Source: an uncultured Clostridia bacterium
GTDB taxonomy: Bacteria; Bacillota; Clostridia; Christensenellales; Aristaeellaceae
Assembly (NCBI GenBank): GCA_947166705.1
Contig: CAMVFE010000010.1
Location: forward strand, 1-58,826
Length of the DNA stretch: 58,826 bases
Direction: 5' to 3'
The position numbers and the translations under genes were made by a program. A model generated the notes under the pieces. That model made no database searches, had not been told where the DNA came from, and worked only from the letters and a program-made list of their open reading frames with translations. The number at the start of each line of letters is the position of its first letter. Within the stretch, counting starts at the first letter, position 1. Shown here one piece after another: positions 49,441 to 57,387 of the stretch.

Positions 49441-49514
49441 CGAGGTGTAGCGCAGTTTGGTAGCGCGTTTGGTTCGGGACCAAAAGGCCGCGGGTTCGAA
49501 TCCCGCCACTTCGA
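49441..49514 (+). tRNA. tRNA-Pro (anticodon CGG)
   Basis: Cloverleaf with acceptor stem CGAGGTG/CACTTCG, D-arm GCGC/GCGC, anticodon loop TTCGGGA and T-loop TTCGAAT. CCA is not encoded. Its 3' end from the T-loop onward is the left attachment repeat of the island that follows. Confidence 0.94.
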
Positions 49515-49515
49515 C
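49495..49515 (+). repeat. attL direct repeat
   Basis: Twenty-one bases covering the T-loop, 3' stem and discriminator of tRNA-Pro. They are identical to 57324-57344. Confidence 0.92.
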
Positions 49516-49521
49516 AGAAAT

Positions 49522-49556
49522 CCCCCTGTGAAATCAACGTTCACAGGGGGTTTCTT
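49522..49556 (+). terminator. Island-borne terminator behind tRNA-Pro
   Basis: Perfect 11-bp stem (49522-49532 with 49540-49550), 7-nt loop, then TTTCTT. It replaces the tRNA terminator displaced to 57346. Confidence 0.88.
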
Positions 49557-49564
49557 ATGCCATT

Positions 49565-49586
49565 GTACCCCAACCGTACCCCAACC
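49565..49586 (+). repeat. Tandem 11-bp repeats at the left end (probable integrase arm sites)
   Basis: GTACCCCAACC occurs twice head to tail. The same motif pair, slightly varied, lies near the right end at 57176-57196 in the same orientation, as expected for arm-type integrase sites. Confidence 0.6.
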
Positions 49587-49593
49587 AAGTTTT

Positions 49594-50787
49594 TTAGCTG
49601 TTGACAGCCTTTATGAATTTCTGCATCCGGTCAGCAGAATTGGCTTTCATTTCTTCTGTAACATGACTATAAACATCAAGGGTAAATGCAACGGTTGCAT
49701 GCCCGAGATTTTCGGATACAGTTTTTATATCATCTCCATTCTGAATTGATAGGGTTGCGTATGTATGCCGCAAATCATGAAACCGGATATTTCCCAATCC
49801 AATTTTTTCAAGTATCAGCTTTACATGATTGTAGACTGTTCTGCTGCTTACGTGTTCACCGATTTCATTGGTAAAGACAAGGTTGTCTTTATTCTCAAAA
49901 CCATATTTAAGGCGGTTTTTTGCCTGTTCTGCCCGTTCTTTTTTCAATGCATCCATAACAAGGGGAGCAGGCTTAATGAGCCTGAATTTACCATTTTTAG
50001 GGCTTGAGAACGTATAATTTCCTCTGCCTTGCATACGGTCATTCCGTAATTGCTTTTCAACCTTGATGATACCCTTGTCAAAGTCCACACAATCCCAAGT
50101 CAGACCTATAATTTCACCTTGCCGAAGTCCGGTGAACAGATCAATAAAATACAGGTTTTCGAATGTATCGCCCTTGATTGCTTGCAAGAATAAGGTGATA
50201 TTGTCGCCCTGTATGACATTCATTTCTTTCTTTTCAACACGGGGAAGAATACAGGAATCGCAAGGATTTGTTTTGATATATCCAGATAATACCGCCTGTG
50301 CAAAACACTTGTGAAGCACACCATGCAGGTTTTTAACGGATTTAGCAGACAGCCCGGAACAATTCAAAATCCGCTTTTTATCATTTTCAACAATGGTAAT
50401 GGCATGCGGTTTCTGACTTTCATTGTAAAACCGCTGAATCAACGGAGCATTGACTTTCTGAAGCTTATAACTTCCAAGAAACGGCTTAATATGGATTTTT
50501 CCAAGATATCCATACTGTTCTTTTGTGGAAGGTTTTACATCTGACAGATATTCCGTTTTCCATGCATCAAACCATTCAGCAACAGTAATTGTTTCGGGTT
50601 TGACATATATTCCATTGTCCAGATCAAAGGTAACAGATGACAGCTTTTTCCTGACTTCTGCTTGAGTTTTTCCATAAACCGACCGCCTGACTGTCTGACC
50701 GTTTTCAACAACTGAATACCTGCCTTCCCAACTTCCGTTTGCACGTTTCCTGATGTTTCCTTCTCCGTTCGCGCGTTTCTTGGCCAT
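49594..50787 (-). CDS. int: Tyrosine recombinase (island integrase)
   Basis: The product is 397 aa. The N-terminal arm-binding domain (about 1-60, NGEGNIRKRANGSWEGRYSV) is of the AP2-like kind seen in Tn916/phage integrases. A SAM-like core-binding domain follows (about 65-165). The catalytic residues are Arg in TGLRQGEI, His and Arg in FHDLRHTYA, His in ENLGHATV and Tyr in LDVYSHV. It should insert the island into tRNA-Pro and, with the excisionase, remove it. It lies 79 bp from attL. It is cotranscribed with the repressor, whose stop is 4 nt before its start. Confidence 0.95.
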   Translation of the reverse strand: MAKKRANGEGNIRKRANGSWEGRYSVVENGQTVRRSVYGKTQAEVRKKLSSVTFDLDNGIYVKPETITVAEWFDAWKTEYLSDVKPSTKEQYGYLGKIHIKPFLGSYKLQKVNAPLIQRFYNESQKPHAITIVENDKKRILNCSGLSAKSVKNLHGVLHKCFAQAVLSGYIKTNPCDSCILPRVEKKEMNVIQGDNITLFLQAIKGDTFENLYFIDLFTGLRQGEIIGLTWDCVDFDKGIIKVEKQLRNDRMQGRGNYTFSSPKNGKFRLIKPAPLVMDALKKERAEQAKNRLKYGFENKDNLVFTNEIGEHVSSRTVYNHVKLILEKIGLGNIRFHDLRHTYATLSIQNGDDIKTVSENLGHATVAFTLDVYSHVTEEMKANSADRMQKFIKAVNS

Positions 50788-50791
50788 GTCA

Positions 50792-51505
50792 TCAATCCCC
50801 CGTTTCTTCTTTTCTTTCCTTCATGATTCTTTTTCGTATGCCGTCCAACTTGGCATCGACTATGCTTTTCATTGCGTAGAATAACAACTCAGGCTCGATC
50901 AAAGTCTGATGGTTCTTATCTTGCAGGATCACGTCAAACGCATAAATTGGAAACAATGCCTTTTCTGTTTGATAATCTGGAGAACGTACGGACAGCCAAC
51001 TATTTATTTCGTCTATGAACAAGTAAGCGTACATCATTGAAATCAGTTCGCGCCCTTCTGTGCGAGATAGTAGCCAATTGATCAATCGAAGAAACTCTGC
51101 GGGATAGATCGATTCAACATTGTAATCTCCATTAAAATTCTTTGCCGGGCTGGTTCCGTACAATTCTTCTCCCGGGGCGTATCCGTCAACCCATCTAATA
51201 GGAAAAGGCTTATCTCCCTCCGCCGCTGCGAGTGCTTTCAAGAACTCAAGAGATTCGTTTGTAAGACCGAGGTCAGCTACAACTTGATTTGTTGAATCAA
51301 TTCCCGTGAGCAACCACATCTTGTCAATTTCCAAAACCTCGCAAATCTCGTCCACATATTTCATGTAGCTTTTTTTCGATTCATTCTCCCATTCAGATAT
51401 GACAGAACGAGGCACTTGTCCCAATTTCTCGGCAAATTCAACTTGTGAGAATCCTTTTTTCTTTCTGGCCTGTCGTATCCTTCTTCCAACCGTTTCCGTC
51501 TCCAT
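50792..51505 (-). CDS. XRE-family repressor of the island (Stl/CI-like position)
   Basis: The product is 237 aa. The N-terminal HTH (about 5-62) reads GRRIRQARKKKGFSQVEFAEKLGQVPRSVISEWEN. The remaining 170 residues have no LexA/CI autoprotease signature (no evident Ser-Lys dyad), and contain EFLRLINWLLSRTEG and YPAEF stretches I cannot assign. In SaPIs the master repressor Stl has the same position and is released by a phage protein, not by self-cleavage. That fits but is inference. It diverges from xis across a 140-bp control region with palindromes. Confidence 0.85.
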   Translation of the reverse strand: METETVGRRIRQARKKKGFSQVEFAEKLGQVPRSVISEWENESKKSYMKYVDEICEVLEIDKMWLLTGIDSTNQVVADLGLTNESLEFLKALAAAEGDKPFPIRWVDGYAPGEELYGTSPAKNFNGDYNVESIYPAEFLRLINWLLSRTEGRELISMMYAYLFIDEINSWLSVRSPDYQTEKALFPIYAFDVILQDKNHQTLIEPELLFYAMKSIVDAKLDGIRKRIMKERKEETGD

Positions 51506-51537
51506 TTTTTGTCATCCCCCTTTGTGATTCGTCATTT

Positions 51538-51587
51538 GTCGCGCATTGCGACTCTATATTTATTCTGTCGCGTTCGTATGATATAAT
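51538..51587. promoter_or_regulatory. Divergent control region of the island: palindrome and rightward -10
   Basis: A perfect palindrome GTCGC-N5-GCGAC lies at 51538-51552. GTCGCG recurs at 51568-51573 and GAACGC appears at 51620-51625. A TATAAT at 51582-51587 faces xis, with only a weak AT-rich -35. The palindrome is the likely repressor operator. Confidence 0.55.
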
Positions 51588-51645
51588 AACTGCATGGGAA
51601 TGTCAATATGATATTTCCCGAACGCAAGAGACGGAGGAACAAAAA

Positions 51646-51846
51646 ATGGAAACAACGACAACAAACAACCTCAAAGCAACCCTGACAGTACCAGAATCCG
51701 CCGCGTTCTTGGGAATTGGCAAGACGTTCGCTTATCAGCTCATCCATGAGCCTGGCTTCCCTGCTTTCAAGATCGGCGGCAAGATTCTCGTGGATCGAGC
51801 GCGTCTGGAGCAGTGGAAGGAAGAGAGGCTGCGGGAGGGGATTTGA
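51646..51846 (+). CDS. xis: Excisionase-like small HTH protein
   Basis: The product is 66 aa from the ATG at 51646, with GGAGGAAC upstream. LTVPESAAFLGIGKTFAYQLIHEPGFPAFKIGGKILVDRARLEQW is a MerR-type winged HTH of the helix_turn_helix_17/excisionase class, nearly full length for the family. As the first gene of the rightward operon it probably bends att DNA to favour excision. Its stop overlaps the next start (TGATG). Confidence 0.88.
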   Translation: METTTTNNLKATLTVPESAAFLGIGKTFAYQLIHEPGFPAFKIGGKILVDRARLEQWKEERLREGI

Positions 51847-52100
51847 TGACGGAGAAGCAACGACTGCACTTCAAGCCATCAGAGCTTGTCGCTCTCGAGG
51901 TTTTGTTACAAGCAGAAACCGAGCGTCCCAATCTGGATTTGGATGAAGCAAAAAACCTTCTGCACTGTTTGCTGAAAGTCCAACGGGCGGAGGCGCGATA
52001 TGCTACAGAGCGGGTCAAATGGGCGGAGGCTGTTGCGAGTCTGGCAGAACAGTCTGTGAGCGTGACCGAAAAGCGGTTGCAAGAAATAGAGCGGGGGTAG
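51846..52100 (+). CDS. Small coiled-coil protein of the island, unknown
   Basis: The product is 84 aa, starting at the ATG that overlaps the xis stop. It is mostly helical and charged (LLQAETERPNLDLDEAKNLLHCLLKVQRAEARYATERVKW), with no membrane segment and no family I know. Its overlap with xis and the gene 5 bp behind show it is translated as part of the early operon. Confidence 0.65.
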   Translation: MTEKQRLHFKPSELVALEVLLQAETERPNLDLDEAKNLLHCLLKVQRAEARYATERVKWAEAVASLAEQSVSVTEKRLQEIERG

Positions 52101-52104
52101 AGAG

Positions 52105-52398
52105 TTGGCAAGCATTGTGGCTGAATATGCCAACCATGCATTTAGGGTGTACTTTTCGCCGTGGCGCGAAAGAGTAGAGCGACCAGCAGACAAGGCAAAC
52201 GTTACGGCTTGCGAAGCCGCTTTATCCGGCCTGTCCGATTCTGACCGGAAAATGCTGGAGATGGTTTATACAAGCGGCTACAAATCAATCAATCAGGCCG
52301 TGAAAGCGGTTTCCGTGGAGACGGGAACACCAGAGGTCAGGCTTTGGCAACTGATCAGGAAGGCAACACGTGGTTTTGCTACCGCGCGGGGGCTGTGA
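52105..52398 (+). CDS. Small protein with sigma-region-4-like HTH
   Basis: The product is 97 aa from a TTG at 52105 behind GAGCGGGGGTAGAGAG. The second half, LSDSDRKMLEMVYTSGY...VRLWQLIRKATRGFATARG, resembles the region-4 HTH of sigma factors and of phage late activators such as ArpU or RinA. The first half is unassigned. A DNA-binding or regulatory role is plausible but not shown. Confidence 0.6.
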   Translation: MASIVAEYANHAFRVYFSPWRERVERPADKANVTACEAALSGLSDSDRKMLEMVYTSGYKSINQAVKAVSVETGTPEVRLWQLIRKATRGFATARGL

Positions 52399-52461
52399 GG
52401 AACAGCCTACCAAACATGGGCAACCGCACAAACGCTGTGCGGAAACTTTCAGAGGGGAAAA

Positions 52462-53652
52462 ATGGCAGAAGTTTTAAAAGGCGGACAAGCTCAACAGCTT
52501 GACAAGGCCGAAAAAATCCTTGGCGGGACAGTCAATCAAGCTGTCAAACAACAACAGCCAGAGAAGCAACATAAAGCTGTTCCGAAACTAAAGCCGCATA
52601 AGGCGGAGGACTTCAACGGAAAAGAAATCGCGGAAGTCATGCCGATTATAGGTGATGGTCTTCTTTATCCGGGGCTTGCATTGTTGGCATCTCCGCCCAA
52701 AATGGGCAAGTCATATCTCGCGCTTGACTTGGCTGTTTGTGTGGCATCCGGTCAACCATTTCTTTCACGTCAGGTTTGCCGCTCTGGTTCGGTTTTGTAT
52801 GTAGATCTCGAAGGGAAATTGAACCGGACACAATTACGATTGCGGGAAATGGGCGTGGACTCTGTCCCTGACAAGCTTGAAATCGTTTTTTCAGACAGAG
52901 AAAACGATATCCGGAGAGTTGATAGCGGATTTTTGGAGCAGTTAGAACAGTGGCTCTCTGAGCATCCTGACGCGGTGCTTGTTGTCGTGGATATGTTTCG
53001 CTCCATTGATGGCAGAACTGGCCTCAAAGAAAACGATTATGAAGCAAAGTCGCGCTCATTGGGACTGTTGCAAAACCTTGCTCTTAACAGAGATATTTCC
53101 ATCCTGTGTCTGATGCACACGCGCAAGGGGAACGGCTTCAATTCGGAGCCACAAGACGTCTTTGAGCAGATTATCGGGTCTGTTGGCCAGTTCGCTACAG
53201 CCGATTGCGCGTGGATGATTACTGGCAAACGGAAGGAGCAACGGAAAACATTCTCCGTCTTGTGCCGGGACAGCTCGCGCGGGGAGGAAACGTATGAAAT
53301 TGCGTTTTCTAATTTTCACTATCGAATGCTTGGAACAAAAGATGAATGCGAGGAAGACGACAAACGCAAGCAGTATGAAACAGACAGTGTCGTTTTCACC
53401 ATCAAAAAGTTATTAGAGACAGATCGTTCATGGAGCGGCACTGCGTCCGAACTGTCTGAAGAAGTCCTAAAGCTGACGGGGGAATATATCGGTGACTCGA
53501 AAAAAGCTGGTAATCAAATCCGGAACAGGCAATTCATGTTGCTTAAAAACGATGGGATTGAGACGATTTTCCCAGGCAGGAATGGCGGAAGGGGTCGTGT
53601 ATTTACGTTCAAACGGTCAAGAACGCCAAAACAAGAGCGGATTGATTTGTGA
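52462..53652 (+). CDS. RepA-like AAA ATPase, island replication initiator/helicase
   Basis: The product is 396 aa. The RecA-like core (about 55-280) has Walker A SPPKMGKSYLALDLA near residue 77, Walker B VLVVVDMFRSIDG and a C-terminal sensor region (LCLMHTRKG, with IIGSVGQFATADCAWMI). This matches the AAA_25/RSF1010 RepA hexameric helicase group used by plasmids and satellites. The C-terminal 100 residues look like a winged helix (SGTASELSEEVLKLTGEY). GAGGGGAAAA precedes the ATG. The iteron array begins just behind its stop, as in SaPI rep-ori modules. Confidence 0.88.
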   Translation: MAEVLKGGQAQQLDKAEKILGGTVNQAVKQQQPEKQHKAVPKLKPHKAEDFNGKEIAEVMPIIGDGLLYPGLALLASPPKMGKSYLALDLAVCVASGQPFLSRQVCRSGSVLYVDLEGKLNRTQLRLREMGVDSVPDKLEIVFSDRENDIRRVDSGFLEQLEQWLSEHPDAVLVVVDMFRSIDGRTGLKENDYEAKSRSLGLLQNLALNRDISILCLMHTRKGNGFNSEPQDVFEQIIGSVGQFATADCAWMITGKRKEQRKTFSVLCRDSSRGEETYEIAFSNFHYRMLGTKDECEEDDKRKQYETDSVVFTIKKLLETDRSWSGTASELSEEVLKLTGEYIGDSKKAGNQIRNRQFMLLKNDGIETIFPGRNGGRGRVFTFKRSRTPKQERIDL

Positions 53653-53655
53653 TTG

Positions 53656-53910
53656 TGACGAAAAGTGACGAATCCAGCAAAGCAATTTTCGCCACAAAAT
53701 CGGCATTACTAAAACGTTTTGTTGAATTCGTCACTTTCGTCACTGAATCCCCGTAAAAGCCTTGTGTTATAAGGGGTTTTGGGGTGTGACGAATCTTTAA
53801 AAGAGGGGTTGATTTTCGTCACAAGATTGACGAATGTGACGATTGTGACGATTGTGACAAATTGACGAAAAAGACAAATGTGACAAAAAATTTTTATATA
53901 TTCTTTATGT
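53656..53910. other. Candidate iteron-type replication origin
   Basis: TGACGA occurs on the plus strand at 53656, 53666, 53787, 53828, 53837, 53846 and 53863, and as TCGTCA at 53728, 53737 and 53816. TGACAA variants are at 53855 and 53881. The copies at 53828-53855 are spaced exactly 9 bp. An AT-only stretch (53885-53905) follows directly, a likely unwinding region. No gene lies in 53653-53968. The position behind the RepA-like gene supports an origin. Confidence 0.65.
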
Positions 53911-53968
53911 AAGGACTGGAAGAAGAAATAGAGACCAGCTTTACACGATAAAAAGAAAGGAGATATGC

Positions 53969-54238
53969 TTGCAGAAAACCGATTTCTTGGATGACTTCAA
54001 CTGGCCTGACGGTAAATCTCCGGGCTGTATAGTCGAACTTGAGAGAAAGCTACGGCGGAGGTTAAAGCGGTCAGGGCTGGGATTGGTGTCAGATCGAACT
54101 GCCTTCATTGATCCGCATTATTGTGGAGGGTATGCGATCTGTTCGGAAGACTGCTTTCTTGCCGGGAGAAATTTCAATCTTACTATTCCCGAGGTTGAGG
54201 AATGGATAGAAACTCACTGCAGGGGGCCGGATGTATAA
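53969..54238 (+). CDS. Small protein of the island, unknown
   Basis: The product is 89 aa from a TTG at 53969, with AAAGGAG 6 nt upstream; the ATG beside it is out of frame and stops after nine codons. The sequence has KLRRRLKRSGLGLV, then CGGYAICSEDCFLAG and a NLTIPEVEEWIE helix. Three Cys residues may bind metal. No family is recognised. It is placed between the origin and a 470-bp stretch without genes. Confidence 0.5.
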   Translation: MQKTDFLDDFNWPDGKSPGCIVELERKLRRRLKRSGLGLVSDRTAFIDPHYCGGYAICSEDCFLAGRNFNLTIPEVEEWIETHCRGPDV

Positions 54239-54711
54239 GTTTTGGCTATGCATAATTGCCGAAAAAGTAATGCATAAGTCATGTATATTTGGAGAGATAT
54301 ACACGAACTTTTGCATAATATTAATGGCAAGTATGCTATGGTTTGAATTGTTACCATATTTAACAGAAATGGCTGTTTTAAGGCTTTTCAACTCTTCGTG
54401 AAACAATAGTTTTACGAATAGTTGAAGCATGACGGCCTTGTATGCATACCAGAAATGACAAATGTTCTGTCAGTATATTGTGTCTGCGTGATCCAAGCAC
54501 CAGAGAATACAGATTGTCGAGAGCAACAGCAGCTTTCCCGACAAAGGCAATCCTGTGGATTGCCGCTGACAGTCCGTCCTGCTTTCCTGCGGCTGTGGTG
54601 TGGTGCTTCCCGAATACTTACCCCAACCCGTGGGAATACTGGCAAGCAGTTTGAATGCAGATGAGACATCTGAGCTGACCGAATTTGCAAAAAGAGAAAA
54701 AGGAGGAACAC
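54239..54711. other. Intergenic stretch without a convincing gene
   Basis: The first 190 bp are AT-rich. A strong 40-nt hairpin lies at 54387-54426. The part 54470-54660 is GC-richer with several small inverted repeats (for example CAATCC-TGT-GGATTG) and one copy of the TTACCCCAACC motif at 54618-54628. Short frames here lack ribosome sites and family likeness. A small RNA, a promoter region for the packaging genes or a packaging signal could all be hidden here. Confidence 0.4.
54387..54426. repeat. 18-bp hairpin with AATA loop
   Basis: The arms 54387-54404 and 54409-54426 pair over 18 bp with one C-A mismatch and one G-U pair around a 4-nt loop. No T-run follows on either strand, so it does not look like an ordinary terminator. 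Confidence 0.75.
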
Positions 54712-55017
54712 ATGATAAACAACGATTGGAACGCTTTTCTGGAGCGGGTTTTACGTGAATTTAGAGCAAGAGCGAAAGACGATGTCGCCGAATGCATCCG
54801 TAAGCATCTTCCGCTCAGTTACTGCATTGACTGTCTGCAAGGCAAAAAGGATGTGATAATACGGGAAATCGGCAAGTATATAGACATGGAAAGAACGGAT
54901 GCCGCAATGATCGAGAAAGCCTTTGCTTGTCCTGAGGGAACAGCTGCAAGGCAATGGGCGGAGTTGATGCTTGATGCGTATGCGGCGGGAGAAGCAGAGG
55001 AGGATGATGATTCCTGA
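54712..55017 (+). CDS. Small acidic-tailed protein upstream of terS, unknown
   Basis: The product is 101 aa from the ATG at 54712, with AGGAGG 5 nt upstream. It is helical, with LERVLREFRARAKDDVAECIRKHL, a Cys pair in YCIDCLQGKKD, and an acidic end (AGEAEEDDDS). Its stop overlaps the TerS-like start (TGATG), so it is coupled to the packaging gene. No family is recognised. A packaging helper is possible from position only. Confidence 0.6.
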   Translation: MINNDWNAFLERVLREFRARAKDDVAECIRKHLPLSYCIDCLQGKKDVIIREIGKYIDMERTDAAMIEKAFACPEGTAARQWAELMLDAYAAGEAEEDDDS

Positions 55018-55637
55018 TGGAGATGCGACGGGAAGCGGGAAGAACAGCAGACGACATGTCGGAGGAGCTGATACGGACAAGATCTCGGAAGATGTATCCT
55101 GCTTCGAATGAGAGCAATGTAAGCCGCGAGGATTACTTCCAAAGTTTGATCCATGATAGCATTGAAACAGTCCAGGCTTCCTTTCCTGAGTTTTGCAGGG
55201 AAGAAGGAATCACTGTCAGAGCGGGGAAGGTCAACCTTTCCGACTTTGATGCAGTTGCAAAAGCTGCTTTCCGGTTCGTATCAGCATGTGAGAAAGCGAG
55301 TCGACCGCCGACGTTTAGCCTGCTGTGTGCGTCGCTTGGGCTAAGTAGACAGCGAGTTTACGAGGTCATGCGGACACGGCGCGACCGGACGACCGAGTTT
55401 CTGTCTGTACTACAGACTGTTTTCGCTGGACTGATGGAAACGGCTTTGCTTGATCGAAGAGTTTCAGAAGCTGGAGCAATTTTCGGCTTGAAAAACAGTG
55501 GTCAGGGGTATGCTGACCGTACAGAGCTGTTTGTCGATAATGGCTTGCGAGCGGATGTCTACGAGAGCGGAGATCCTGAGGAGATTGCCCGGAGGTATTT
55601 GTCCGGGATGGCACAACCAACAGAAGGAAAGGAGTAA
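55017..55637 (+). CDS. Terminase small subunit-like protein
   Basis: The product is 206 aa. The HTH region SRPPTFSLLCASLGLSRQRVYEVM resembles the DNA-binding part of Firmicutes phage small terminases (typically PTFSGLCLWLGISRQT). The later AGAIFGLKNSGQGYADRTEL matches their C-terminal hallmark (FxLKNxxGYxDxxE). A preceding helix-rich 90 residues may be the oligomerisation part. Small terminases choose the DNA to package. In a satellite, its own TerS diverts helper capsids. No large terminase is present in the island. The match is from memory of family patterns. Confidence 0.7.
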   Translation: MEMRREAGRTADDMSEELIRTRSRKMYPASNESNVSREDYFQSLIHDSIETVQASFPEFCREEGITVRAGKVNLSDFDAVAKAAFRFVSACEKASRPPTFSLLCASLGLSRQRVYEVMRTRRDRTTEFLSVLQTVFAGLMETALLDRRVSEAGAIFGLKNSGQGYADRTELFVDNGLRADVYESGDPEEIARRYLSGMAQPTEGKE

Positions 55638-55642
55638 AGAAA

Positions 55643-55993
55643 ATGGAAAAAAATTGGAGCGAAGAAATCAAAGCATTGAGGCGGGAGATTGATTGTATGG
55701 ATATTGCAAGGAAGGCTGTGCAGTTTGGTTTTGACTCTGCCTCCGCTGGCAAGATCGCAAAATGGATGGTAGGTGCTGCGGATCCTGAAGGTGCATTGCA
55801 AGCAATATCAACAATCTGGATGCAGCGTGAAAGGGATCTCAAAAAACAACTGATGGATGGCGTTCCTCGTAAGACGGTGTCTTCTTCTCCGTCTGTCTCC
55901 AAGGAGCAGCTCGACGGGATGAGCTACAGAGAGCGGGTTGACTTTGCGGAAGCCAATCCAGAGCAGTATGAGCGGTTGATGGGAAGAGCATAA
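55643..55993 (+). CDS. Capsid-scaffold-like protein of the island
   Basis: The product is 116 aa, 5 nt behind the TerS-like gene, with AAGGAAAGGAGTAAAGAAA upstream. The N-terminal half is helical (EEIKALRREIDCMDIARKAVQFG), followed by GAADPEGALQAISTIWMQRERDLKKQLMDG, a Pro/Ser/Val linker, and the end SYRERVDFAEANPEQYERLM. That order and final motif resemble phage scaffolding proteins (DUF4355-like), whose C-terminus binds capsid protein. In SaPIs, CpmB is an alternative scaffold that makes small capsids. The same role here is speculative. Confidence 0.45.
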   Translation: MEKNWSEEIKALRREIDCMDIARKAVQFGFDSASAGKIAKWMVGAADPEGALQAISTIWMQRERDLKKQLMDGVPRKTVSSSPSVSKEQLDGMSYRERVDFAEANPEQYERLMGRA

Positions 55994-55995
55994 AA

Positions 55996-56031
55996 AGAAC
56001 CGGGGCGGTTATTCGCTCCGGTTCTCTTCTT
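55996..56031 (+). terminator. Terminator of the packaging module
   Basis: A 12-bp stem with one G-U pair (55996-56007 with 56014-56025), 6-nt loop, then CTTCTT. A group II intron starts directly behind it. Confidence 0.85.
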
Positions 56032-56433
56032 GTGTGCCGGGCATGGCACAATTCTAGCGGGTGAAAGTCCCGTCACGGGTAGTTACCGCCAAGTGTAGCG
56101 AACCGCAAGCTGCTGTCAGCAATGGCAGGAGGGGAAGAAGCGGTGTAGCAAAGCCGAGGAGCCTACGAACAGAAACCGGTGAGGACATCTCCAAGGTGGC
56201 CAACTCCAGATTGGGCCTGTACCGCAGATGCGGTATGAATGTAGTCAACTATCTGCTGAGCCAGAAAGTTCTTTCCTTGCCAAATAAGAAAGAGAAACGA
56301 CCTGGACTGGTCGATCCTCTCGCTTATTACCTGAGAAATACTTGAACCCATGTTACGATGTAGCGCCGTATACCAGACCGGTATGTACGGTGCAATGGGA
56401 GGGGCGAGGGCTAATACCCTCCCTCTACCCTAT
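56032..56433 (+). ncRNA. ORF-less group II intron (boundaries approximate)
   Basis: The 5' end reads GTGTGCCGGGCATGG, the usual group II GUGYG start, and the next 150 bases resemble domain I of bacterial group II introns. Domain V is at about 56362-56394: AGC triad, stem GCGCCGT/ACGGTGC, 2-nt GT bulge, ATACC/GGTAT and AGAC loop. Domain VI-like sequence with an AY end follows. Only 400 nt are present, and no reverse transcriptase or maturase is encoded. Splicing would need protein from elsewhere. The position behind a terminator hairpin is that favoured by group IIC introns. Confidence 0.78.
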
Positions 56434-56620
56434 TCCATTCCTCGTTAGAAAGCCCCATTTCGGACCTGATTAGCCGTTGAATCATCCCATTTACTGTTTC
56501 CCCGTTTTTATCCGCAAACGCCTTTATTTGACCCTTCCGGCCCCTTGGAACCGTGATGTAAATTCGTTCCAAATGCTTCTCGTTCCAGCATCGTGACCAA
56601 TCGGTTTGATTTTTACCCAT
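56411..56620 (-). CDS. Ribbon-helix-helix (Arc-like) small protein
   Basis: The product is 69 aa from the ATG at 56620, with GGGGTGG upstream. HLERIYITVPRGRKGQIKAFADKNGETVNGMIQRLIRSEMGL is a typical RHH pattern: a strand, then two helices with GETVNGMI. Such proteins bind DNA as dimers, often as repressors or antitoxins. The last six codons (RVEGGY) lie in the 3' end of the group II intron, so the original tail was replaced. A perfect palindrome upstream (56746-56761) is a likely operator. Confidence 0.75.
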   Translation of the reverse strand: MGKNQTDWSRCWNEKHLERIYITVPRGRKGQIKAFADKNGETVNGMIQRLIRSEMGLSNEEWNRVEGGY

Positions 56621-56745
56621 CTGATCCACCCCACAAAAGGAATCCGGGAATAAAATATCACACTTTCCGCAGAGCAAACTATAGTTTTTAAAATGTAAGA
56701 CTTCTGTCACCAAAACGAAAAACGCAAGTGCTATATTTTTTATGG

Positions 56746-56761
56746 CTACTAACGTTAGTAG
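56746..56761. promoter_or_regulatory. Perfect 16-bp palindrome, candidate RHH operator
   Basis: CTACTAACGTTAGTAG lies in the divergent region between the RHH gene and the 103-aa gene, 29 bp before the latter's ATG. A TATATT -10-like sequence is 8 bp to its left on the plus strand. Confidence 0.6.
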
Positions 56762-56789
56762 TTAATTAAAAAGAAAAGGGGAAAAGAAA

Positions 56790-57101
56790 ATGGATATCAG
56801 AGCGGAGCTGATGGGGCTTGAAGCAGACCTGACACGAGTTGTGCATTATGTTTATAGGGCGCACATTTTGATATCGAAGGCCACTGAAGAAACCGTCATT
56901 TTCCCTTGGGAACGAAGAAAACAAACAACAGCAGAAGCAATGCAGACGCAACAAATAAAAGAATCGTGCGTCAAAGATGTTTTGATCGAAGCAGCGGATG
57001 AAGGTCTGGCAATAGCAAACGACTTTGCCGAAGATTTATTTGATCGATTTGAAACATTGATTGAAGCATTGAATGAATCAGAATCTGTAAAAGAAACCTG
57101 A
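56790..57101 (+). CDS. Small helical protein at the island's right end, unknown
   Basis: The product is 103 aa, with AAAAGGGGAAAAGAAA before the ATG. It is acidic and helical (LMGLEADLTRVVHYVYRAHILISKATEE, EGLAIANDFAEDLFDRFETLIEALNESE), with no membrane segment or known motif. It is divergent from the RHH gene across a palindrome, so it may be controlled by it. It could be an accessory (cargo) gene, for example an anti-phage or host-interaction factor, but nothing in the sequence shows this. A terminator follows. Confidence 0.6.
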   Translation: MDIRAELMGLEADLTRVVHYVYRAHILISKATEETVIFPWERRKQTTAEAMQTQQIKESCVKDVLIEAADEGLAIANDFAEDLFDRFETLIEALNESESVKET

Positions 57102-57115
57102 AAGCGCAAGCAACA

Positions 57116-57150
57116 GGGGGAGACGTAAAGCCGTTTCCCCCTTTATTTTT
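57116..57150 (+). terminator. Terminator of the island's last gene
   Basis: A 10-bp stem with one G-U pair (57116-57125 with 57132-57141), 6-nt loop, then TTTATTTTT. Confidence 0.9.
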
Positions 57151-57175
57151 CAAGCTTTCTGCTGGATTTTTTTTA

Positions 57176-57196
57176 TACCCCAACCTTACCCCAACA
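57176..57196 (+). repeat. Tandem 10-11-bp repeats at the right end (probable integrase arm sites)
   Basis: TACCCCAACC followed directly by TTACCCCAACA, the counterpart of the left-end repeats, 128 bp from attR. Confidence 0.6.
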
Positions 57197-57323
57197 AGCT
57201 TGTTACAGCATGGGAAAGCGTGATACTTGGCATAAAACCAAAAAGCTGAGAAACATTGATTTTTCAAGCTCTACGATATTAGATGGCATAACCTGATATT
57301 ATGCGGAAAAGCCGTTCGGATAA

Positions 57324-57344
57324 TTCGAATCCCGCCACTTCGAC
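57324..57344 (+). repeat. attR direct repeat
   Basis: Exact 21-bp copy of the tRNA-Pro 3' end. It is followed at once by a terminator hairpin that must have belonged to the tRNA operon before integration. Confidence 0.92.
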
Positions 57345-57345
57345 T

Positions 57346-57387
57346 CCCCGGGACATTGAAGATCAATGCTCCCGGGGTTTTGCTTTT
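57346..57387 (+). terminator. Original terminator of the tRNA-Pro operon, displaced by the island
   Basis: A long GC-rich stem (57346-57359 with 57363-57377, one bulge) followed by TTTTGCTTTT, directly behind attR. Between here and 57527 I see no gene. Confidence 0.85.

Follow-up and report, generated by a model that had tools for sequence, protein, structure and literature searches.

Satellites are given as 7-20 kb in the available text of PMC13376191, and a close comparison for the locus reported here is the phage-inducible chromosomal island (PICI) of Staphylococcus aureus typified by S. aureus pathogenicity island 1 (SaPI1). As far as the available text of PMC5644958 and PMC6893505 goes, the SaPI1 protein CpmB carries the coat-binding motif found at the C terminus of the helper phage's scaffold, competes for the scaffold's site on the coat and shifts heads from T=7 to T=4. 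Gram-positive PICIs were judged here after the available text of PMC6092414, which asks for a set gene layout with divergent regulators, a replication module of a primase homologue plus an initiator, a size of typically ~15 kb and an attachment (att) site never occupied by a prophage, and which also lists PICI-specific genes as nearest orthologues, a repressor freed by a helper protein rather than cleaved, and induction, packaging and interference that depend on a phage. We analysed a window of 58,826 nucleotides from an uncultured Clostridia bacterium (contig CAMVFE010000010.1). Inside a tRNA-Pro gene it carries an island of about 7.8 kb (49495-57344) which is very probably a PICI-like phage satellite. 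Next to a gene for a terminase small subunit (TerS), the island encodes a 116-residue protein, p116, which by its sequence appears homologous to the C-terminal half of the scaffolding proteins of phage heads.

The layout is that of a Gram-positive PICI: the regulators are divergent, the integrase gene lies left of the repressor gene and in the same direction, and the excisionase gene (xis), replication gene, origin and terS lie to the right (Table 1). An earlier note on this DNA had proposed a satellite on the SaPI/PICI plan, and that reading is supported here; among the PICI features given in PMC6092414 the gene layout agrees, and the size and a private att site do not. The 21-bp direct repeats from the tRNA-Pro 3' end are exact, and they are the sole 21-mer present twice in the window. 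The integrase is beside attL, the XRE repressor reads leftward and xis rightward, and a RepA-like ATPase is followed by an iteron array, all as the note had described. The motif TGACGA occurs ten times within 53650-53900 (251 bp), and the rest of the island has a single copy; in 2000 samples from a first-order Markov model of the iteron region the mean was 0.33 copies and the maximum 3. The replication module is one AAA_25 ATPase followed by iterons; Pfam found no primase family in the island, and PHROG matches to primase/helicase groups were weak. The note had also seen no autoprotease in the repressor, and Pfam and NCBIfam returned helix-turn-helix (HTH) matches alone, with no S24, IrrE or other peptidase domain. 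Its claim that structural, lysis and conjugation genes are missing was borne out too: the island proteins that were scanned with Pfam, PHROG, NCBIfam and PADLOC matched no family of large terminase subunits (TerL), portals, capsids, tails, lysis proteins, relaxases or conjugation proteins, and packaging or structural families in these scans were limited to TerS and the scaffold half. Because it has no shell or tail gene, the island probably needs another phage to move.

For the TerS-like gene the outcome was mixed. The match to PF16677 (E 8e-4, 19.9 bits) is below the curated cut-off of 29.4 bits, which four of ten TerS homologues exceed, while the predicted structure shows the fold of the PF16677 / P22 gp3 type; the note had named a failed structure comparison as grounds against the TerS-like call. 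In one structure comparison the entries below P22 gp3 appear unrelated (Dicer, RIG-I, phycocyanins); in another the TM-scores over the whole model were ~0.4, with a root-mean-square deviation near 20 A. Solved structures searched by sequence gave nothing under E 0.01 for the TerS profile (best 0.028), nothing for RepA at E 0.01 and one row, at E 1.5, for the scaffold profile. The TerS of a related genome, G220, matches three records: H6/1, whose annotation runs TerS-TerL-portal, and two human faecal scaffolds that carry no annotation; that of G221, like the window TerS, was without relatives by tblastn in the phage and plasmid records searched. One of the two faecal scaffolds, MT837742 (L111), has a primase-like end and encodes a GP3-type TerS with 42% identity to the G220 protein; no open reading frame (ORF) of TerL size was seen in its 6.3 kb. 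It was not used as packaging evidence, its link to the particle-purified study PMC8361208 being a guess from sample and country, and a sister scaffold, L115, having by eye the look of ordinary bacterial DNA.

The scaffold-like gene that the note had listed encodes p116. A tblastn search with this protein (E limit 5) matched 31 phage records, of which 15 were listed, and the informative names among the matches listed were all scaffolds: TP901-1 (two records, one named SFP), P335, SoJo, Tubberson and LLC-1. The remaining matches listed are unannotated or hypothetical, and the E-values are modest (3e-3 to 1). The matched regions are scaffold C-terminal ends, residues 100-218 of 220 in TP901-1 and 174-247 of 248 in SoJo. 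Against shuffled scaffolds p116 reached z 13.4 with TP901-1 and 12.7 with SoJo (0 of 500 shuffles as high), z 3.1 with Javan503 (7 of 500 as high) and 0.7 with phi187. A homologue of 105 residues in a related island, that of genome G249, showed the other preference: it matches 'capsid and scaffold' proteins of Streptococcus (1e-4) and the head scaffolding group PHROG 172 (2.5e-4), aligns to residues 83-189 of 189 in Javan503 and 135-207 of 207 in phi187, and scored z 11.9 and 9.2 with these (no shuffle as high), the other two scaffolds giving 2.1 and 1.8. Five other island proteins compared with the same four scaffolds stayed at z 2.2 or lower (200 shuffles). Profile-profile comparison with hhalign gave 97.5% and E 6e-12, against 0.1% for a control alignment; this E-value is flattered because the four subject scaffolds were picked from the tblastn hits. 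An IMG/VR scan found 41 contigs, and in every one of the 41 the matched stretch reaches to within 5 residues of the C-terminal end of the ORF; these contigs are not independent, since many nearly duplicate TP901-1 and the patterns were built on an alignment holding TP901-1 and SoJo. Their ORFs have at least 188 residues in 37 of the 41; L197 and L199 have 110, and in L194 and L201 the contig stops within the ORF. In L166 the ORF next to the scaffold match is a coat protein (PF25209, 7e-13). The scaffold tail ends like EQYERLMGRA, and its nearest counterpart found, EEYERLMGRT, is in L164, a first candidate for the type of helper. To judge by these alignments p116 resembles CpmB in plan, as a short protein with the C-terminal, coat-binding part of a scaffold.

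Because SaPI1 CpmB works by redirecting head size, the same is proposed for p116, and by this analogy we lean slightly towards it as a size determinant. The XRE repressor would silence the divergent xis-rep operon until bound by a helper-phage protein. Excisionase and integrase would then yield an excised circle, which RepA would replicate from the iteron origin 3' of the rep gene. Standing in for the TerS of the helper, that of the island would mark island DNA for packaging by the helper's TerL; if the island is a satellite, packaging through its own TerS is likely. Keeping only the coat-binding scaffold half, p116 would compete with the helper scaffold, and the small heads that result would have room for ~8 kb, too little for the helper genome to enter. 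It is also conceivable, if rather unlikely, that p116 is a decoy which jams helper head assembly, the island being packaged in normal heads as concatemers. The available text of PMC6893505 has CpmA by itself giving aberrant shells, and SaPIs that do not redirect size being packaged well in large heads, both of which would suit a decoy; it also has CpmB, a scaffold-tail mimic, redirecting size together with CpmA, a point that counts both ways because no CpmA was recognised in the island.

The empty tRNA-Pro site which the earlier note had suggested looking for was seen: in at least five sister genomes (G026, G201, G223, G091, G232) the tRNA-side and right-flank matches overlap by exactly 21 nt. 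Thirteen sister tRNA-Pro loci of the same genus (L063-L075) were read. In five of them (L063, L065, L066, L073, L074) the terminator seen after attR directly follows tRNA-Pro, in L072 this terminator follows a 48-nt copy of the tRNA end, and the remaining loci have different DNA or different terminators there. The tRNA keeps a terminator after integration because the island supplies a hairpin just inside attL. The G+C content is 45.7% in the island and 61.4% in window positions 1-46000. Copies of TACCCCAACC start at 49566 and 49577 and at 57176 and 57187, with a single stray copy at 54619, and the pairs at both ends are probably integrase arm sites. A similar pair, TACCGCAAC, adjoins the att site of the G225 island L064 in the same tRNA-Pro, where the integrase is 55% identical. 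As a separate matter, the tRNA-Pro end of this genus resembles an integration hot spot: the 21-mer occurs three times in L067 and twice each in L071, L072, L073 and L074, and the terminators behind the 21-mers of such multiple-copy sites differ.

TerS matches were found in 12 of 396 order-level genomes, the island's own genome included, and in ten family genomes, of which G020 was left unread, as were the order genomes G030, G337, G359, G427 and G595. The TerS surroundings were read in 13 genomes and comprised eight islands, one full prophage (G220) and four undecided loci (G032, G494, G296, G312). L110 and L154 showed neither tRNA nor repeat in a test that did not cover L108, L109 and L157; the weak first-round matches G021 and G196 were rejected after their loci were read and no island was seen. 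All eight islands are bounded by repeats of a tRNA end: the window island (tRNA-Pro(cgg), 7.83 kb), L056 (tRNA-Arg, 9.6 kb), L057 (tRNA-Thr, 9.55 kb), L105 (tRNA-Pro(ggg), 9.5 kb), L106 (tRNA-Arg, 8.0 kb), L107 of G249 (tRNA-Thr, 9.26 kb), L155 (tRNA-Arg, 8.25 kb) and L156 (tRNA-Leu, 5.3 kb). An integrase, a replication protein and TerS are common to all eight, with the integrases of L056 and L105 matching weakly. The replication proteins are AAA_25 (three), DUF927 (two), VapE, D5 with an NrS-1 polymerase domain, and DUF3987. The ORFs above 350 residues are integrases and replication proteins, plus a serine recombinase in L056 and L105. The unassigned ORFs of 278-349 residues had no structural PHROG match; the small ORFs of the seven relatives were scanned in part. 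The closest gene order is that of G249: integrase, xis, AAA_25, a 110-residue protein, a relative of the window's 97-residue protein, TerS, mini-scaffold and ribbon-helix-helix protein. The smallest island, L156, has scarcely more than integrase, regulator, AAA_25 and TerS. Besides G249, RepA relatives occur in five IMG/VR contigs and in two candidates that were set aside, L061 (tRNA-Trp, 11.9 kb), which has no TerS, and L062 (tRNA-Leu), where no repeat was obtained.

Two side observations concern these loci. Proteins of 278-349 residues near TerS in L056, L057, L105, L110 and L155 belong to no known family and are loosely alike at 15-21% identity; they are possible helper-interference or head genes. 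Short FtsK/SpoIIIE-like motors of 251 and 263 residues are encoded in the TerS island L107 (6304-7059) and in the prophage contig L109 (6144-6935).

These relatives bear on whether the island is just the left arm of a former phage, with TerL, head, tail and lysis genes lost and the scaffold cut by the deletion. That p116 lacks the N-terminal scaffold half would fit such a history, as would an integrase, repressor and xis of general phage type (integrase relatives are present in 1776 phage records) and the TerS relative in the full prophage G220:C94, which has an SPP1-type portal, long tail-like ORFs and a scaffold related to profile A3. A deleted prophage nevertheless seems improbable to us: eight islands of 5.3-9.6 kb share the compact make-up with intact tRNA repeats, a gap of 5 nt separates TerS from p116, each of which has its own start, while a single terminator follows the two, and a pair of TerS and mini-scaffold recurs in G249, its second protein matching another scaffold subtype. 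In TP901-1, moreover, the scaffold gene adjoins that for the major head protein, with no terminase gene in the stretch read. In the G220 prophage a TerL-like protein (L140:8916-11000) combines a LAGLIDADG domain, which may be an intein, with a T7-like TerL nuclease domain that scores below cut-off.

Several observations weigh against the satellite reading. Excision, induction and packaging are predictions from the sequence. Besides the TerS score below cut-off, the TerS model has middling confidence (mean predicted local distance difference test score 60.8, ~80 over residues 70-145), and phmmer gave no link from the window TerS to L109 or L110, both of them among the four relatives that exceed the cut-off; profile A1 does link them. 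Phage records contain the integrase relatives; for the window TerS, tblastn found none in 50,697 phage or 72,556 plasmid records, and two IMG/VR scans found no relative. The hhalign subjects and the overlapping IMG/VR contigs count here as well, and the mini-scaffold is in two of the eight islands (window and G249). Its profile A9 found nothing in the other 44 genus genomes at E 0.05, and across 308 family genomes profile A3 found the window, G249 and one G220 prophage scaffold only, the last matched at positions 5-69 rather than at the tail. That a TerS relative sits in a full prophage belongs to the same side. Two PICI features differ: the size is about 7.8 kb (5.3-9.6 kb in the seven related islands), and the att site is not free of prophages. 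At the same tRNA-Pro end, G225:C10 (L142) has a 44-nt copy of the tRNA end, a tyrosine integrase ~260 bp away and, on the same contig, a 645-residue TerL; this prophage is a possible competitor or helper.

No helper was found in the genomes searched. The note had suggested checking for a prophage with a related TerL, and the island's own genome, a 71%-complete metagenome-assembled genome (MAG), yielded no TerL of the PF03354 family, other TerL families not being searched. PF03354 TerL is present in 10 of 45 genus genomes. Nine TerL stretches were read; the ORF before TerL starts MATKGRKPLP or MATRGRKPLP in L144, L145 and L147, and in L144 it is Terminase_4 (PF05119), other than the GP3 type. 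This lack of a resident helper, together with the intron-like RNA at 56034-56434, might suggest a true satellite lineage whose copy here is inert and fixed in the strain. We think this fairly unlikely, as the main ORFs are open, the RNA comes after a terminator and interrupts no recognised gene, and satellites do not need a resident helper. A further alternative is an element resembling integrative and mobilizable elements, with a plasmid-type RepA and moved by another element's conjugation. In L114 an integrase, an AAA_25 RepA and a Mob_Pre relaxase (PF01076, 1e-20) do occur together, which counts against the satellite reading too, and the related G249 island has its short FtsK-like motor; among the island proteins scanned, however, there is no relaxase or coupling protein family, and TerS with a scaffold half has no known use in conjugation, so that we give this alternative very little weight. 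With all of these considered, we hold a PICI-like satellite to be the best overall explanation with good confidence.

Table 1. Features of the island and its insertion site, by position in the window.
Feature	Position	Strand	Evidence or remark
tRNA-Pro(cgg), integration target, intact at left end	49441..49515	+	ARAGORN; Rfam RF00005 70 bits
attL core, 21 bp	49495..49515	+	exact copy of tRNA-Pro 3' end
Island-borne hairpin terminator	49522..49550	+	occupies empty-site position of host tRNA terminator
Two TACCCCAACC repeats 11 bp apart, probable left integrase arm sites	49566..49586	+	
Tyrosine integrase, 397 aa	49594..50787	-	PF00589 1.3e-22
XRE master repressor, 237 aa, N-terminal HTH	50792..51505	-	HTH_3 3e-10
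Divergent promoter region	51506..51645	.	consensus matches; GTCGCgcattGCGAC palindrome 51538-51552
Excisionase, HTH_17 / Tn916 Xis-like, 66 aa	51646..51846	+	PF12728 4.1e-12; TIGR01764 above cut-off
84-aa protein	51846..52100	+	no informative family
97-aa sigma-region-4-like protein	52105..52398	+	phrog_248 transcriptional activator 0.015
RepA-like AAA_25 replication ATPase, 396 aa	52462..53652	+	PF13481 3.2e-30
Probable origin	53650..53915	.	TGACGA iterons, direct and inverted, then AT-rich stretch
89-aa ORF	53969..54238	+	no informative family
101-aa acidic protein upstream of TerS	54712..55017	+	no family above chance
TerS, GP3_package type, 206 aa	55017..55637	+	
Mini-scaffold (p116), 116 aa, probable head size determinant	55643..55993	+	C-terminal half of head scaffolding protein
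Terminator ending TerS / mini-scaffold operon	55996..56025	+	
ORF-less group II intron-like RNA, ends approximate	56034..56434	+	RF00029 35.6 bits E 5e-4; RF02003 25.2 bits E 0.025
Ribbon-helix-helix (CopG-like) protein, accessory or regulator	56411..56713	-	PF07878 0.005, below cut-off
103-aa protein	56790..57101	+	no informative family
Terminator	57115..57142	+	
Two TACCCCAAC repeats 11 bp apart, probable right integrase arm sites	57176..57196	+	
attR core, 21 bp	57324..57344	+	then host tRNA terminator ~57345-57380

Some of the remaining features can be placed further. A candidate repressor promoter, sigma-70-like with an 11/12 match, lies at 51606-51578 on the minus strand; the scan yielded 12 promoters against 9.9 expected. 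The 97-residue protein weakly resembles phage late activators, and its model A4 matches five of the eight islands by hmmsearch, three of these already being in the model. The ribbon-helix-helix protein has a relative in the G249 island (1.6e-9). The intron-like RNA, which the earlier note did not mention, has its D1-D4 and D5-D6 matches in order, both under the gathering score, and stands directly behind a hairpin terminator, a position typical of class C group II introns. A 74% copy of its 3' part is found at G000:C37:6692-6861.

Together the islands define a set of candidate satellites from gut Clostridia that are known through MAGs. It is possible, though we put it forward tentatively, that very small satellites (5-10 kb) with TerS and a helper-derived mini-scaffold as a possible packaging module form a lineage of their own in gut Clostridia. 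If so, scaffold-tail piracy would have more than one origin outside SaPIs, because the window protein is of the TP901-1/SoJo type and that of G249 of the Javan503/phi187 type, and the scaffold tail would reveal which phages each satellite robs. Two rules are suggested: that a satellite can redirect head size by retaining just the coat-binding half of the helper scaffold, and that the sequence of the retained half points to the helper. Judged by titles and the opening of abstracts, no earlier description of such gut Clostridia elements was found in the literature searched; the SatelliteFinder survey may include Clostridia elements. What is new here is a small Clostridia satellite with a scaffold-half gene beside TerS, the overall kind being already known.

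Among known systems, TP901-1 / P335-type phages share with the island the scaffold C-terminal half homologous to p116 but are full phages, in a comparison limited to the scaffold. The S. thermophilus chromosomal islands (StCI), likened by description from the available text of PMC13376191, likewise have an integrase, regulators and replication genes between att repeats. The phage-inducible chromosomal minimalist islands (PICMI) of Vibrionaceae share the very small genome and reduced gene content but reportedly have no capsid remodelling gene, going by the available text of PMC10803314, whereas the island has TerS and a scaffold half. The SaPI1-type PICIs of S. aureus are likewise bounded by att sites, with integrase and repressor leftward, xis and replication rightward, an origin behind rep, their own TerS and a short protein sharing the scaffold C-terminal part (CpmB). 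The island differs from them in being about half the size, in its AAA_25 RepA with no primase family matched, in a TerS of the P22 gp3 (PF16677) type and in a TP901-1-like mini-scaffold of 116 residues against ~72 for CpmB. No CpmA, Ppi or virulence gene was recognised in it, and its host is a Clostridia lineage with kin from the ruminant gut. Because of its size and shared att site we do not file the island as a PICI, but it most likely works like one.

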